Of a stretch of DNA of 64,000 nt, positions 25,307 to 30,189 are shown piece by piece (positions within the stretch are counted from its first letter, which is position 1; every line of letters starts with the position of its first letter). Position numbers and translations under genes: made by a program. The notes beneath the pieces are model-generated. The model worked only from the letters and a program-made list of their open reading frames with translations. It searched no databases and had not been told where the DNA came from. This stretch comes from Alcanivorax sp. DG881 (GTDB taxonomy: Bacteria > Pseudomonadota > Gammaproteobacteria > Pseudomonadales > Alcanivoracaceae), in contig NZ_DS989915.1 of NCBI RefSeq assembly GCF_000155615.1, positions 637,135 to 701,134 of the forward strand, in the 5' to 3' direction.

Positions 25307-26110
25307 CTACCAGCCGTCGTCTTCGTACTCGTCATTGAGTTCCGAATCGCGGGCTTCAATCTCGGGGAAGCGCAACGACGGCCGGTCACCGCTTTCAAAA
25401 CGACGGCGTTGCAGGTAAGCATTGCGCAGGAAGGTATAGCGGTCGCCAACGATATTGCGTTCCAGGTCCAGCAAGTCAGCCCGCAAGTCGACCACATACA
25501 CCGCGGTAAAACTGTGGCGGGTCAGGTCGTGGGGGATATAGTGACGCAGGCGCATGTAGTCTTCCGGCAGGATAGCCGCAGCATCCCGCCCTGTGGATGG
25601 CCCAAAGAACGGCAGCATCATGAACGGGCCTTCCGGCACACCCCAGCGGGCAAACGTCAGGCCCAGGTCAGTATTGCGCTTCTCCAGATCCACCTTGCTG
25701 GCCACATCAAACAAGCCACCAATACCTAGCGTGGTATTGACGGCAAACCGGCCCCAGTTCTGCCCCACATGCCCCCAGCGCCACTGCAAGACACTGTTCA
25801 GCCCGCTGCGAAAATCACGCAGGTTTTCATAAAAACGGGTGATGGTGTCGTTCATCCACTGTGGTGTGACCTTGTCGTACCCTTTGGCAACGGGCTTGAG
25901 GCCGTATTTGTCCAGCGCTTCGTTGAAAGCAAAGATCTTGCGGTTGATGTCTTCCCAGGGGTCTTCGTACTTGGGTTTGCCGTCCGGGGAGTCAAATGCC
26001 GTGGACGCATCTCCCCAGTCTTCTTCCGCCTGAACGGCGAATGGCAGACATAACAGCAAACTCAGCAATAGATAACGCACGGACACCCCGGACAGTAATG
26101 GACGCCGCAT
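25307..26110 (-). CDS. mlaA: MlaA-family outer-membrane lipid-asymmetry protein
   Basis: MlaA sits in the outer membrane with a porin and removes phospholipids from the outer leaflet, passing them to MlaC. The 267-residue protein has the signature EDPWEDINRKIFAFNEALDKY at about residues 50-70 (core DPWEDINRKIFAFNE). Family blocks GRFAVNTTLGIGGLFDVA, FARWGVPEGPFMMLPFFGPS and RDAAAILPEDY follow. The signal peptide ends PFAVQAEEDW without a cysteine, so unlike the E. coli protein it appears not to be lipidated. The other mla genes are not in the window. It is 65 bases after the hvf-like operon and is probably an independent gene. Confidence 0.92.
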   Translation of the reverse strand: MRRPLLSGVSVRYLLLSLLLCLPFAVQAEEDWGDASTAFDSPDGKPKYEDPWEDINRKIFAFNEALDKYGLKPVAKGYDKVTPQWMNDTITRFYENLRDFRSGLNSVLQWRWGHVGQNWGRFAVNTTLGIGGLFDVASKVDLEKRNTDLGLTFARWGVPEGPFMMLPFFGPSTGRDAAAILPEDYMRLRHYIPHDLTRHSFTAVYVVDLRADLLDLERNIVGDRYTFLRNAYLQRRRFESGDRPSLRFPEIEARDSELNDEYEDDGW

Positions 26111-26175
26111 TATAGCGACGCCCCGGCCCCTACGAACAGGGCCACCGGCAAACCGTTACCCAACCCGCACAGGTT

Positions 26176-26844
26176 TTACACATTCGATCTGGCGCGAGCC
26201 CAGCAACGACGGGCAATCCAGTAGTCCAGGCTGACAAAGCGACCCGCCCCGGAGAAGAACAGCACCAACAGCATAATCAGGTAAGTAACGGCAAATTCAA
26301 TACCATTATTCAGCACCACGAAATTGCCTTTACCGGTAAGCCAGTCGTACTGTCCGTGCTCGCGCAGAATAGCCCGCGCCCGGCCCAGGCGCTCGCCCAC
26401 AGCCTCACTGTTCTGCAAACTTTCCGCGGCCCCCGGAAACCCGACCTCGGCCAGGGGCGCAGCCATACTGGTTGCCGGATTGCCCGGTGCGATGGCGAAC
26501 CAGCCGTTTTCCCAGTGCACGGAGCCAATGGCAACCATCATGGTGAACATCAACGGGATGCTGATATAACGGGTAAAAAGGCCCAGTAGCAGCAAGACAC
26601 CGCCAACCAGCTCAGTGGCCGTCGCCAAAAAGGCCAGTAACGCGGGAAAAGGCAAACCCAGCCCCCATTCACTGTTGCCAAACCAGGACACCGTACTCTC
26701 AAAGCTCATGGCCTTGTTATATCCAGCGCTGAACATCACCGGTGCCAGAAACAAACGAAGCGCCAGAGGCGCAAGGAAATCGGCAATACGGGTATGATTC
26801 AATGCCGCATGACAGCGGTGAAACAAAGACAGTAGCGTGGTCAT
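26176..26844 (-). CDS. DoxX-like membrane protein (HvfX type)
   Basis: A 222-residue inner-membrane protein of the DoxX family. Four hydrophobic segments are seen: RLFLAPVMFSAGYNKAM with the family Gly/Lys pattern, LLAFLATATELVGGVLLLLG, a helix through SIPLMFTMMVAIGSVHW, and a last one near AVTYLIMLLVLFFSG. An inserted loop of about 75 residues between the last two helices is typical of the members found in hvf/MNIO operons. It is last of the four-gene operon, 11 bases after the DUF2063 gene. A role in respiration-linked redox or in handling the peptide product at the membrane is inferred from context only. Confidence 0.82.
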   Translation of the reverse strand: MTTLLSLFHRCHAALNHTRIADFLAPLALRLFLAPVMFSAGYNKAMSFESTVSWFGNSEWGLGLPFPALLAFLATATELVGGVLLLLGLFTRYISIPLMFTMMVAIGSVHWENGWFAIAPGNPATSMAAPLAEVGFPGAAESLQNSEAVGERLGRARAILREHGQYDWLTGKGNFVVLNNGIEFAVTYLIMLLVLFFSGAGRFVSLDYWIARRCWARARSNV

Positions 26845-26855
26845 CGTCAGGATCC

Positions 26856-27626
26856 TTACAGGTGACTCAGTGAGGTTCCTATTAGGATGTCCCGATCACG
26901 CATTTGTTGCAGAATATCGCGAGAAAAAGTTTCCAGCGCCGCCACGTCCGCAAACTGCATTTCCTCAGCCAGGCGCCCCACCACCGCTTTCCCCGTCTCC
27001 GTTGGGTGCTCGCCAATCAACTGCAGCAATCTGGCCGTCGGGGCGTTGATTTCCATAAAGCGCACGCCATCGTCCCGGCCACGATAAACCAGTAACCAGA
27101 CCGGTTGCTCAAGCGCTTCCTGAGGCTGAAATTCGCTACAAATTTTGTGCACAGGAAAGTGGTAGCTCAATATCTCATGCAGAGGGCTAAGCTGGGGAAT
27201 CGCACGGAGTAGATCTCCATCCGGATGAAACCCGGTTTCCGGGAAAGTTTCTGTGGAGGCGTCCAGCACCAGCTCCATCCACTCGTAATGCGCCAGCTCC
27301 AGCATAAAAACCGGGTCGCCGGGCTCACTGCCCTGGCCGCTGGCCAGAAAACTGACAAATTCCTGGGGAATTTCCAGAAAATAAGGAGTTTGACTGGCAT
27401 GCTTTTCAAAGAATGCCCTGGCCAGTCTCTGCCAACGCGCACTGTCCAGCAGGCTGTGCAGCACAGGAAATCCCTGGCGCAAAAAACCGTTCACATTGTT
27501 GAAAAACAGATTGCGATAAATATCCAGACGCCGCTCTTCGATGCCGTCGGGGGCAGGATGCGAATCCGGATTACGCAAGTGCGCAGCGAATTCCCGCTGT
27601 AGCGTCTGAAAATCCGGGGTTTTCAT
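26856..27626 (-). CDS. DUF2063 partner protein of the MNIO enzyme (HvfC type)
   Basis: A 256-residue cytoplasmic protein. The N-terminal half is the DUF2063 domain, with RLDIYRNLFFNNVNGFLRQG (core IYRNLFFNNVNGFL), the FFEKHASQTPYFLEIPQEF block and LELAHYEWMELVLD. The C-terminal half is a winged-helix-like module. In known systems this protein recognises the precursor peptide and delivers it to the DUF692 (MNIO) enzyme, as MbnC does for MbnB. Its ATG overlaps the stop of the MNIO gene as ATGA, so the two are made together, fitting a stable complex. Confidence 0.88.
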   Translation of the reverse strand: MKTPDFQTLQREFAAHLRNPDSHPAPDGIEERRLDIYRNLFFNNVNGFLRQGFPVLHSLLDSARWQRLARAFFEKHASQTPYFLEIPQEFVSFLASGQGSEPGDPVFMLELAHYEWMELVLDASTETFPETGFHPDGDLLRAIPQLSPLHEILSYHFPVHKICSEFQPQEALEQPVWLLVYRGRDDGVRFMEINAPTARLLQLIGEHPTETGKAVVGRLAEEMQFADVAALETFSRDILQQMRDRDILIGTSLSHL

Positions 27627-28534
27627 GACTGCACAGACTTTCTGGAAGACGTGCCAGGCGCGGATGCCTTTATGGCCGCGCTCGCATAGTGTTGCTGATA
27701 ACCGCCAATCTTGCGCAACTCGGCAAAAAGGGTTTCGTTATCCGGAATATTGAAGTCCCGCTCCAGCAACGTGGGAAGTGGACCAAACGTCCGATAGGCG
27801 TGGTCCAGTAATGCCCACACCGGGTCGATCACATCGCTGCCGTGGGTATCCACTTTCAGATCTTCCGCTTCATCAAAATGGCCTGCGATGTGCAAATAAC
27901 AAATGCGTTCATCAGGCAATGCGGAAATAAAATCGTAGGGGTCATAGCCGTGATTAATACCGTTCACATAGGCATTATTCACATCCAGCAGCAGCTCGCA
28001 GTCAGCCTCCTGCAATACCGCCTTGACGAAATCAATCTCTGACATTGCTGCGCCGGGCGCGGCATTCCCCAACCGAGCATAGTAGCTAACGTGCTCAATG
28101 CCGATCGGTTGTTCAAGAAAGTCCTGCACCTGGCGAATACGATCCGCCACATAATGCACCGCCTCTTCCGTAAAGGGAATCGGCATCAAATCATAGAGAT
28201 GACCGTGGTCACTGCAATAACTCAGGTGTTCGGTATAACGGCGAATGTTGTGTTCTTTAAGAAACGACTTCACCGACTTCAGTAATTCGAAATCCAGCGG
28301 TTCTGGCCCACCCAGTGACAGACTCAGCCCGTGAGTCACAAAGGGATAGCGCTCGGTAAAAGCACGAAACTCTTTACCCAGACGCCCACCCATGGGAATC
28401 CAGTTCTCTGGCGCCACTTCCATAAAATCAAAGGGGATACTGTCAGGCGCGGAATCATGGGCCTGTGAAAGCGGGCCCATGAGGGCCCGCCGAAGACCCA
28501 GGCCCACTCCGGACACTGGTGTCTCAGTTTTCAT
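27623..28534 (-). CDS. MNIO-family peptide-modifying oxidase (DUF692, HvfB type)
   Basis: A multinuclear non-haem iron-dependent oxidative enzyme of the DUF692 family, with a 303-residue TIM-barrel. Candidate iron ligands lie in order at Glu39 (FMEVAPENW), His68 (THGLSLSLGG), Glu102 (TEHLSYC), Asp184/Asn186 (LLDVNNAYVNG), His215 (YLHIAGH), Asp229/His231 and Glu258 (LLERDFNIP). This is the full family set. Characterised members convert cysteines of a precursor peptide into thiooxazole- or oxazolone-type groups that bind copper. The gene follows a cysteine-repeat peptide gene by 12 bases and overlaps its partner gene by four. Its substrate is therefore almost certainly that peptide. Confidence 0.92.
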   Translation of the reverse strand: MKTETPVSGVGLGLRRALMGPLSQAHDSAPDSIPFDFMEVAPENWIPMGGRLGKEFRAFTERYPFVTHGLSLSLGGPEPLDFELLKSVKSFLKEHNIRRYTEHLSYCSDHGHLYDLMPIPFTEEAVHYVADRIRQVQDFLEQPIGIEHVSYYARLGNAAPGAAMSEIDFVKAVLQEADCELLLDVNNAYVNGINHGYDPYDFISALPDERICYLHIAGHFDEAEDLKVDTHGSDVIDPVWALLDHAYRTFGPLPTLLERDFNIPDNETLFAELRKIGGYQQHYASAAIKASAPGTSSRKSVQS

Positions 28535-28546
28535 GGTCAGGCGTCC

Positions 28547-28843
28547 TTATGCGTCACCGCCGCATTTGCCTTCACCACACTTGCCTTCGCCTTTCTTGTC
28601 TTCACCACATTTACCTTCGGCACCTTTTTCACCACAGCTGCCTTCGGCTTTCTTGTCTTCGCCGCACTTGCCTTCACCACACTTGCCTTCAGCGTGATCT
28701 GCGGCCAACTGGTAACCCGCGCTCAGGTCAGCAGCAGCAAACGGATTTTCAGCAGCCTGGGCCACTGGTGCAGACAGCGCAGAAGCGACAACAGCAGCAC
28801 CAACGGTAGCAGCAAGAGGGTTCAGTTTGGTCAGCTTAGCCAT
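28547..28843 (-). CDS. Cysteine-repeat precursor peptide (HvfA/bufferin type)
   Basis: A 98-residue exported peptide. A signal peptide ends at about residue 30 (SAPVAQA). A short spacer is followed by a Cys/Gly/Lys/Glu repeat tail from residue 52 to the end. The unit EGKCG occurs five times and EGSCG once, placing cysteines at 55, 60, 70, 79, 89 and 94; there are no others. Spacers such as EDKK break the repeats. This is the arrangement of HvfA and of bufferins, whose tail cysteines are oxidatively modified by the MNIO enzyme and bind copper in the periplasm. It is first in the operon, after TATGGAGACTTAAC, and should be its most abundant product. Confidence 0.9.
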   Translation of the reverse strand: MAKLTKLNPLAATVGAAVVASALSAPVAQAAENPFAAADLSAGYQLAADHAEGKCGEGKCGEDKKAEGSCGEKGAEGKCGEDKKGEGKCGEGKCGGDA

Positions 28844-28997
28844 GTTAAGTCTCCATACTTACTTTATTTGAGGGTGTACATTATTGAATGTCATGTCCGA
28901 AGCCGTTTTACCGGCTCAGGCACCCGCGCAAATCAAGAGCACCTGACACAGACAATATAGAGATGCGGGCGTGAGGTAAACGTTACGGCTACAGGCC

Positions 28998-29031
28998 AAA
29001 AAAAAGAAAAAAGGCCGCAAAATGCGGCCTT
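28998..29031 (-). terminator. Terminator after the KAS III gene
   Basis: On the minus strand the nine-base stem AAGGCCGCA / TGCGGCCTT is followed by a long T-rich run. It lies 28 bases past the stop at 29059 and isolates the hvf-like operon downstream. Confidence 0.88.
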
Positions 29032-29058
29032 GTGAAGAGCATGTGAACGCAGCAGTGA

Positions 29059-30189
29059 TTATTTGATGCGGTTCACAATAACGCTGCCGATGGAATAACC
29101 GGCACCGAAGGAACAGATAACACCCTTGGTGTCCACGGGCAGATCTTCATTGTATTTGTGAAACGCAATCATGGAGCCCGCTGAACTGGTGTTGGCGTAT
29201 GCATCCAGAATAACCGGAGCTTCCTCACGGGTGGCGGGACGGCCCAGTACCCGCTTGGAAATCAGTTCATTCATGCTCAGGTTGGCCTGGTGCAGCCACA
29301 TGCGGCTGACAGAATCGACCGGCACCTGGGTATCGGCCAGGTGCGAACTGATCTGCTCGGCAACCATGGGGCAGACTTCCTTGAACACCTTGCGCCCTTC
29401 CTGGCGAAAGAGTTTGTCACGCGCGCCCACACCACGCTCATCTGCCCGGTTCAGGAAGCCAAAGTTGTTACGGATGTTGTTGGAAAACTTGGTTTGCAGG
29501 CGAGTGCCCAGAATCTCCCATTGGTTGCCAGAGGTCGCATCTTCCTTGCGCTCCAGAATCACGGCCGTGGCCACGTCACCGAAAATGAAGTGGCAATCAC
29601 GGTCTTCCCAGGCCAGATGTGCCGAGCAGATTTCCGGGTTCACCATCAGCACCCGGCGGGCACTGCCATTGCGGATCGCGTCCACGCCGGCCTGGATACC
29701 GAAAGTGGCACTGGAACAGGCCACGTTCATGTCGTAACCCCAGCCGTGGTCCATGCCCAGGGCCGCTTGCACTTCCACTGCCATGGCCGGGTAGGCACGC
29801 TGCATATTGGAACAGGCCACCAAAACGGCATCCAGGTCATTGGCTGTCAGGCCGGCATTGTCCAGTGCCTGTTTGGCTGCCTTGACCGCGATCTCCGCCT
29901 GAATGGACACCTCGTCATCGGTGCGCTCATCAATGCGGGGAGCGAGGCGGTCAGGGTCCAGAATGCCTGTTTTATCAATTACATAACGCTGCTTGATGCC
30001 TGACGCTTTTTCGATGAAAGCACTGTTGGACGGGCCCAGAGCCTCCAGCTCGCCGGCTTCGATGGCTTGTGCATTGCGGGCGTTATAACGCTCCACGTAT
30101 TCATTGAATGATTCCACCAGTTCGTCGTTGGTGATGGTCTGGCCCGGGGTCCACAGGCCGGTCCCACTGATTACAACCGAATAGCTCAC
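29059..30189 (-). CDS. Beta-ketoacyl-ACP synthase III-like condensing enzyme
   Basis: A thiolase-fold enzyme that condenses an acyl-CoA with malonyl-ACP to start fatty-acid synthesis or a related chain. The 376 residues are longer than classical FabH (about 320). The catalytic triad is Cys158 ([14 protein letters not shown]), His300 ([13 protein letters not shown]) and Asn333 ([11 protein letters not shown]). An insertion near residues 30-60 and the [20 protein letters not shown] block mark it as the long FabH-like group. Pseudomonas has such a protein that shunts medium-chain acyl-CoA from beta-oxidation into fatty-acid synthesis. That role would suit a hydrocarbon or lipid degrader but is inference. 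It is a single gene with its own terminator. Confidence 0.88.

Follow-up and report, generated by a model that had tools for sequence, protein, structure and literature searches.

The window analysed here, a stretch of 64,000 nucleotides from Alcanivorax sp. DG881 (C2:637135–701134 of a 3.8 Mb genome), carries on its minus strand the four genes hvfA, hvfB, hvfC and hvfX, an ordinary and complete captophorin operon (oxazolin/HvfABCX-type) of the Hvf branch, which is a known type. The new part is the likely control of the operon, while control of such operons by extracytoplasmic function (ECF) sigma factors is in principle already known. Comparative evidence, in which independent losses are few, probably points to a circuit in which a distant ECF sigma factor and its anti-sigma factor act on a promoter element ahead of hvfA. 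Alcanivorax are marine oil degraders.

We regard the whole explanation, comprising the captophorin operon, its chemistry, copper binding, ECF control in trans and a feedback loop, as likely. Gene content, protein families, conserved residues, conservation of the promoter, co-loss, relocation of hvfX together with the promoter and a codon-level constraint are the parts of it that were observed directly. An even chance is given to a more specific reading, in which a module with a dedicated sigma factor is split in two, the hvf operon being one half. A single strong promoter would serve this factor for the captophorin operon; it would also drive a moved hvfX and, from within the 3′ coding region of its own gene, its anti-sigma gene. 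The module would thus be shut off without self-activation, and the captophorin would be its main or only output.

Family assignment of the four proteins

An earlier note on this DNA, made from the letters and the open reading frames (ORFs), had described four minus-strand genes and read them as an operon for a Cys-repeat, ribosomally synthesized and post-translationally modified peptide (RiPP) of the hvf/bufferin class, modified by a multinuclear non-heme iron-dependent oxidative enzyme (MNIO). The ORF coordinates agree exactly with that layout, all four genes being on the minus strand with gaps of 12, -4 and 11 bases (hvfA-hvfB-hvfC-hvfX), and the Pfam and NCBIfam matches and KCG repeats show that the RiPP reading was right. 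In Pfam, the MNIO matched MbnB_TglH_ChrH (329 bits), HvfC matched both DUF2063 (101 bits) and NGO1945_C (99 bits), and HvfX matched DoxX (77 bits), all above cut-off. The NCBIfam cut-offs for HvfB (420.6 bits, cut-off 360), HvfC (309.5 bits, cut-off 142) and HvfX (241.4 bits, cut-off 80) were passed as well. HvfX is frequent, but not obligatory, in captophorin operons. The methanobactin MbnB model reached 29.8 bits on the window MNIO, below its cut-off of 325. In sequence, the MNIO is closest to the solved structure 3BWW and the partner to 3DEE, and both structures are assigned to the MNIO/PME1 class in PMC13097082.

For the precursor, the family search proposed in the earlier note succeeded with the NCBIfam model KCGExKCG_twice (41.3, cut-off 19.5) and gave no Pfam match at E 0.001, hence no DUF2282 match. 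We claim the window precursor for the wider EGKCG group and not as a strict HvfA equivalog.

An HvfB-level MNIO above cut-off was found in 89 of 143 relatives (genus, family and order), including all 17 within the genus. A genome search with NF050137 gave at least 69 of the 143 genomes, a lower bound that misses the window's own gene. The MNIO family has a single match in the window's genome, and its closest named relatives are from Alcanivorax (A. jadensis T9 and an Alcanivorax metagenome-assembled genome, each with 85% identity). The class as such is common and described, with more than 24,000 MNIO-PME1 loci reported in PMC13097082. Our literature search found nothing joining Alcanivorax with MNIO, or Alcanivorax with an ECF sigma factor and copper, and as far as the former search reaches, the system still appears uncharacterised in this organism, as had been suggested. 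In one relative (G067:C141) an HvfB-type MNIO lies in three pieces beside KCG repeats, because either the gene is broken or the assembly is faulty.

The putative promoter element upstream

The earlier note was silent on a promoter and on the terminator of the upstream gene. In 14 aligned upstream sequences, 12 of them different, the block GTAACGTTTACCTC-N7-CATCTCTATA is found with few changes, and in divergent family members GTAAC, the 16-base spacing and CATC alone are kept throughout. By its sequence, GTAAC-N16-CATC is the layout of an ECF promoter. A sigma-70 promoter scan of positions 25900–29150 found none.

The element was counted for the window and 80 loci (81 operons), of which 19 gave no usable NPF-containing precursor and dropped out; 62 upstreams remained (genome_contigs set). 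GTAAC-N16-CRTC was present in 12 of these; other spacings between 10 and 23 gave 0 or 1. The carriers make up 12 of the 15 family upstreams, against a mean of 0.03 and a maximum of 1 in 300 first-order Markov shuffles; L024 is a family locus without the site. A separate precursor search (30 loci, 23 usable upstreams) gave the element in 12, seven outside the family.

Among the 17 genus genomes, the longer pattern GTAACN16CATCTNNAT gave 19 matches, 16 at hvf (in 16 of the 17 genomes) and three elsewhere, compared with 0 in the reversed control. The hvf site of G015 reads CATCC. Looser patterns showed no excess over the reversed control in the window's own genome (13 versus 23 and 18 versus 33), so a wider regulon cannot be read from the site. 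The score used for sites in family genomes selects the same bases that were later seen to be invariant, and this invariance is therefore partly by construction. The scoring found no precursor for G032 and G044 and a wrong start for G042; for G032 and G042 the site was judged by eye and entered by hand into the count of sigma genes and sites given below.

A distant sigma/anti-sigma pair

Several ECF genes are present in the window's own genome. One of them (G000:C2:1601854–1602459), about 0.94 Mb away from the operon, is followed by a gene for a 77-aa anti-sigma factor. The latter has an H-x3-C-x2-C motif and matches both NF052368 (54.2 bits, cut-off 50) and zf-HC2 (23.1 bits, cut-off 22.2); against solved structures it gave one weak match (E 0.78). 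The sigma factor is below every NCBIfam equivalog cut-off among those shown, and no equivalence to RpoE2 is claimed.

This ECF gene is present in 37 of 46 family genomes. Among the 43 family genomes with an Hvf-level MNIO, 35 have both the sigma gene and the site, one the sigma gene only, one the site only and six neither (Fisher 8e-6, ignoring kinship). In the sigma-only genome, G043, the sigma homology ends at residue 182 of 202 and the anti-sigma start is missing. The hvf promoter of this genome (L290) is decayed, so that the system was apparently caught in loss. Two family genomes without the MNIO, G023 and G033, are also without the sigma gene. On an MNIO tree built by a quick method, the state of the site changes twice and that of the sigma gene four times, with two separate joint losses.

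A compact arrangement could be identified in G122, where homologs of the ECF gene (51%) and of the anti-sigma gene (36%), an hvfA-like captophorin precursor and an hvfX/DoxX homolog (67%) follow each other, with two GTAAC-N16-CATCT sites between the anti-sigma gene and the precursor.

Relocation of hvfX

The placement of hvfX was read at both loci in 24 of the 36 genomes with the sigma gene and an Hvf-type MNIO. In 10 genomes, a protein 65–72% identical to the window HvfX is encoded behind the ECF/anti-sigma pair, and all 10 have a stretch from hvfC to mlaA without hvfX. In nine genomes hvfX belongs to the hvf operon and is absent behind the sigma pair, in five it is at neither place, and none of the 24 has it at both (Fisher 0.002, uncorrected). 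The relocated gene is preceded by GTAAC-N16-CATC in 9 of the 10 cases. That the moved hvfX is again preceded by the promoter element is the strongest single argument for the putative control circuit. A second DoxX-like protein of 135 aa (L211:1992–2399, G000) follows the anti-sigma gene and is also seen in G014, G015 and G022; it was judged DoxX-like by eye and has no Pfam or NCBIfam match at E 0.01.

A site inside the sigma gene

Of 37 family sigma genes, taken from 36 genomes and without the broken copy of G043, 33 also have GTAAC-N16-CRTC within the gene itself. In the window's genome (L219) this internal site lies about 100 bases ahead of the anti-sigma start. Among 71 near-invariant sigma codon columns, only two are confined to a single codon; Cys168 (TGT in 37 of 37), at the start of the site, is one of them. 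At codon 175 the third base is A in 36 of 37 genes even though the residue varies between Ala, Pro and Thr. GCA makes up 16% of the codons used for Ala, and in none of ten other conserved Ala columns of the sigma gene is it the commonest codon. The pattern suggests a constraint at the DNA level, the simplest candidate being a promoter that serves the anti-sigma gene. In 12 genomes examined for it, the stretch upstream of the sigma gene had no site, from which it appears that the sigma factor is not autoregulated in the usual way.

Enzyme residues, precursor and predicted chemistry

The residues H68, H103, E147, D184, N186, N187, H215, D229, H231 and E258 of the MNIO are each found in 81 of 81 sequences (the window and 80 relatives). 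By analogy with 3BWW and with N175, D242 and H244 of HvfB they are probably the ligands of the MNIO, and these positions are kept in the alignment. R15, R16 and the D-F of the ERDF motif are likewise invariant (81 of 81). According to PMC13097082, these residues of Lys-Cys MNIOs select the substrate or take part in catalysis; they were equated with the FonB residues by motif and numbering.

A DUF2063 homolog accompanies the MNIO in 80 of 80 relatives (in L066 it is matched over 69 residues only). The leader box NPF-x4-[LM]-x2-GY was present in 64 of the 65 loci with an NPF-containing, Cys-Gly-rich ORF, and a looser form in all 42 family precursors. On these two counts the grouping of the operon is not due to chance.

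The residue preceding Cys-Gly in 37 distinct family precursors (n = 210) is K in 151 cases, S in 44, T in 8, R in 4, A in 2 and N in 1. The 47 loci labelled as outside the family (n = 401) have K in 378 cases and S in 10. With more S and less K than outside, the family seems to be drifting from EGKCG to EGSCG. FonBC accepted Ala, Arg and Thr at position 3 (PMC13097082), and by analogy Ser at this position is probably accepted by the enzyme. The precursors of L081 and L049 are without any KCG and have Ser-, Thr-, Ala- or Asn-Cys-Gly instead (EGSCG, EGTCG, EGACG). At 7 of 11 re-read loci (L038, L058, L060, L064, L067, L070 and L079, all MNIO-PME loci) an EGKCG-type precursor was not found in the stretch; DoxX stands in front at four of these seven.

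The earlier note had stated that known relatives make copper-binding heterocycles. Characterised relatives indeed carry 5-thiooxazoles (tentative for bulbicupramide) and bind copper according to PMC13097082, PMC12538549 and PMC13419390, so for the class as such this question has been answered. By homology, a 5-thiooxazole on each core Cys and copper binding are predicted for the window HvfA.

Proposed mechanism

HvfA would be synthesised in the cytoplasm, and its NPF...L..GY leader would dock onto the RiPP recognition element (RRE) of HvfC. HvfB, as an O2-using iron enzyme, would convert each of the six Cys and its preceding residue into a 5-thiooxazole, with a mass change of -4 H per Cys or about -24.2 Da in total. 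The peptide would be exported by the Sec pathway and bind Cu(I), thus protecting the envelope. HvfX would be a membrane accessory.

Expression of the operon would be switched on in trans by the ECF sigma factor with the zinc-finger anti-sigma factor, presumably by contact with the promoter at 28951–28986. The same sigma factor probably fires from the site inside its own gene, making its anti-sigma factor and so closing a negative loop. The stimulus may be an oxidant or a thiol-reactive metal.

The operon adds Alcanivorax to the predicted makers of captophorins. What is gained is a concrete, testable circuit: a defined promoter, a named distant sigma/anti-sigma pair, an hvfX placed in one or the other of two operons that share a promoter element, and a possible promoter within the sigma gene. 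If the circuit is true, the purpose of copper peptides could be approached through what inactivates the anti-sigma factor, and HvfX, a poorly understood DoxX protein, would be tied to the pathway by evolution, beyond adjacency.

Evidence against and alternative explanations

Several observations weigh against this explanation. The HvfA equivalog model NF050188 reached 53.7 bits on the precursor (residues 2–96 of 98 aligned), below its cut-off of 95. Outside the family, GTAAC-N16-CRTC was absent from all 47 upstreams of the genome_contigs set, and 20 of the 47 have AACT-N16-GTCA (often GAAACTT) before the captophorin precursor (shuffle mean 0.17, maximum 2). This dyad was picked as the commonest one and has a sigmaE-like ECF layout. 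G031 has the site and no sigma gene was found in its assembly, which is 64% complete, and G044 (86% complete) has the sigma gene with an MNIO of only 195 bits, below the HvfB cut-off. The independent events are so few that a paired sign test on sigma gene and site cannot reach significance, and the same holds for an independent-pairs sign test on the two places of hvfX. The relocated hvfX of G041 has no site, four of the 37 family sigma genes are without the internal site, and the missing site upstream of the sigma gene belongs here too. Finally, no MNIO or partner was matched in the 12 kb stretch of G122, whose MNIO lies on another contig.

It seems improbable to us that the upstream element is not an ECF promoter but a sigma-70 promoter overlapped by an operator for a copper or redox regulator. 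GTAACGTTTAC is nearly palindromic, TATATT resembles a -10 box and GTAACGTTTACC is identical across the 14 aligned sequences mentioned above. However, divergent family members keep GTAAC and CATC at spacing 16 and lose the dyad, and the sigma-70 scan was negative. The element also tracks the ECF gene and precedes hvfX where hvfX is in the ECF locus. There is next to no likelihood that the operon is of the bufferin type (DUF2282 or Buf2) instead of the Hvf/EGKCG type, despite an identical gene order A-B-C-DoxX and a BufB maturase model that still reaches 239.8 bits on the window MNIO. The cut-off of this model (310) was missed, whereas those of HvfB, HvfC and HvfX were passed, and the precursor has EGKCG repeats and no DUF2282 match. 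Of the class named in the earlier note, the Hvf (oxazolin, EGKCG captophorin) part thus stands and bufferin proper does not.

Rather unlikely, in our view, is a peptide that serves mainly in defence against oxidant or thiol stress or in upkeep of the envelope, copper binding being secondary. The H-x3-C-x2-C motif and zf-HC2 match of the anti-sigma factor would fit such a role, as would the induction of H. influenzae hvf by hypochlorous acid (HOCl) through RpoE2 (PMC7907618) and the presence of mlaA downstream of hvf in 28 of 28 family stretches read. Against it, mlaA persists after loss of hvfX or of the sigma gene and may thus be mere synteny, and the characterised relatives bind copper, 5-thiooxazole peptides being linked to copper stress in PMC12538549 and PMC13097082.

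Comparison with known systems

The hvfABCX genes of H. influenzae (PMC13419390, PMC7907618) encode the same four protein families as those of Alcanivorax, including EGKCG repeats with six Cys. The Alcanivorax repeats are less regular, with one EGSCG. Control by an ECF sigma factor with a small anti-sigma factor, which is probable in Alcanivorax, is common to both systems; in H. influenzae the sigma gene lies in the msrAB region, outside the doxX cluster, and RpoE2 governs the whole set of four hvf genes under HOCl (PMC7907618). In some members of the Alcanivorax family, unlike H. influenzae, hvfX is found in the sigma locus.

Fontiphorin (fonABC, PMC13097082) and bulbicupramide of Microbulbifer (mmrABC, PMC12538549) share the EGKCG precursor, the MNIO and PME1 with Alcanivorax. 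For these, 5-thiooxazole (tentative for bulbicupramide) and copper binding were demonstrated. In the descriptions of these loci, fon is given as precursor, MNIO and PME1 only and mmr as mmrA-C only, while the Alcanivorax operon is completed by hvfX.

Besides a DoxX-family gene, the meningococcal rpoE operon contains three genes for hypothetical proteins (PMC2893595). This sigmaE/MseR operon, NMB2140–2145, is controlled by an ECF sigma/zinc-binding anti-sigma (ZAS) pair, and its -10 element CGTCTAAH resembles the CATCT of Alcanivorax. Its genes all lie in one operon, whereas those of Alcanivorax are split across two loci, and its -35 element GTMAGBWTT with a spacer of 12–13 differs from GTAAC with N16. 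Bufferin operons of Caulobacter are controlled by the ECF factor sigmaF (PMC3511200, PMC12452194), and their MNIO operons have the promoter GTAACC-N16-CGAA, which shares the -35 core and the spacing with Alcanivorax. They differ in having DUF2282 precursors, an NrsF/DUF1109-type anti-sigma factor and a different -10 element.

Feature coordinates and genomic setting

Table 1. Features of the hvf operon and its surroundings in the window (positions are those of the window).
Feature	Position	Strand	Remarks
hvfA, exported precursor peptide	28547..28843	minus	98 aa; six Cys, as five KCG and one SCG
Probable Sec signal peptide of HvfA	28754..28843	minus	residues 1–30, VAQA|AENPF, judged by eye
Conserved leader box of HvfA, NPFAAADLSAGY	28712..28747	minus	probable docking site for the RRE partner, from comparison
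HvfA core, six Cys in EGKCG/EGSCG repeats	28550..28690	minus	predicted 5-thiooxazole sites; chemistry by homology
hvfB, MNIO (DUF692)	27623..28534	minus	303 aa; R15/R16 and ERDF (D260-F261) as in Lys-Cys type MNIOs
hvfC, DUF2063/RRE partner (PME1)	26856..27626	minus	256 aa; 4-base overlap with hvfB
hvfX, DoxX-family membrane protein	26176..26844	minus	222 aa; Pfam and NCBIfam matches
ECF-type promoter GTAAC-N16-CATCT (CTATATTGTC)	28951..28986	minus	begins 143 bases ahead of the hvfA start
Intrinsic terminator of the upstream beta-ketoacyl-ACP synthase III gene	29011..29031	minus	divides the synthase gene from the hvf operon

Since the terminator closes the upstream synthase III gene, the hvf operon is probably a transcription unit of its own. 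At gathering scores, Rfam gave two tRNAs in the window and nothing else. Downstream of the operon lies mlaA (25307–26110, minus strand), and among the 80 named loci it is downstream on the same strand in 37. We weighed counting it as a fifth gene of the operon and decided against this, since its position looks like stable synteny and, judged by eye, it may have its own promoter.

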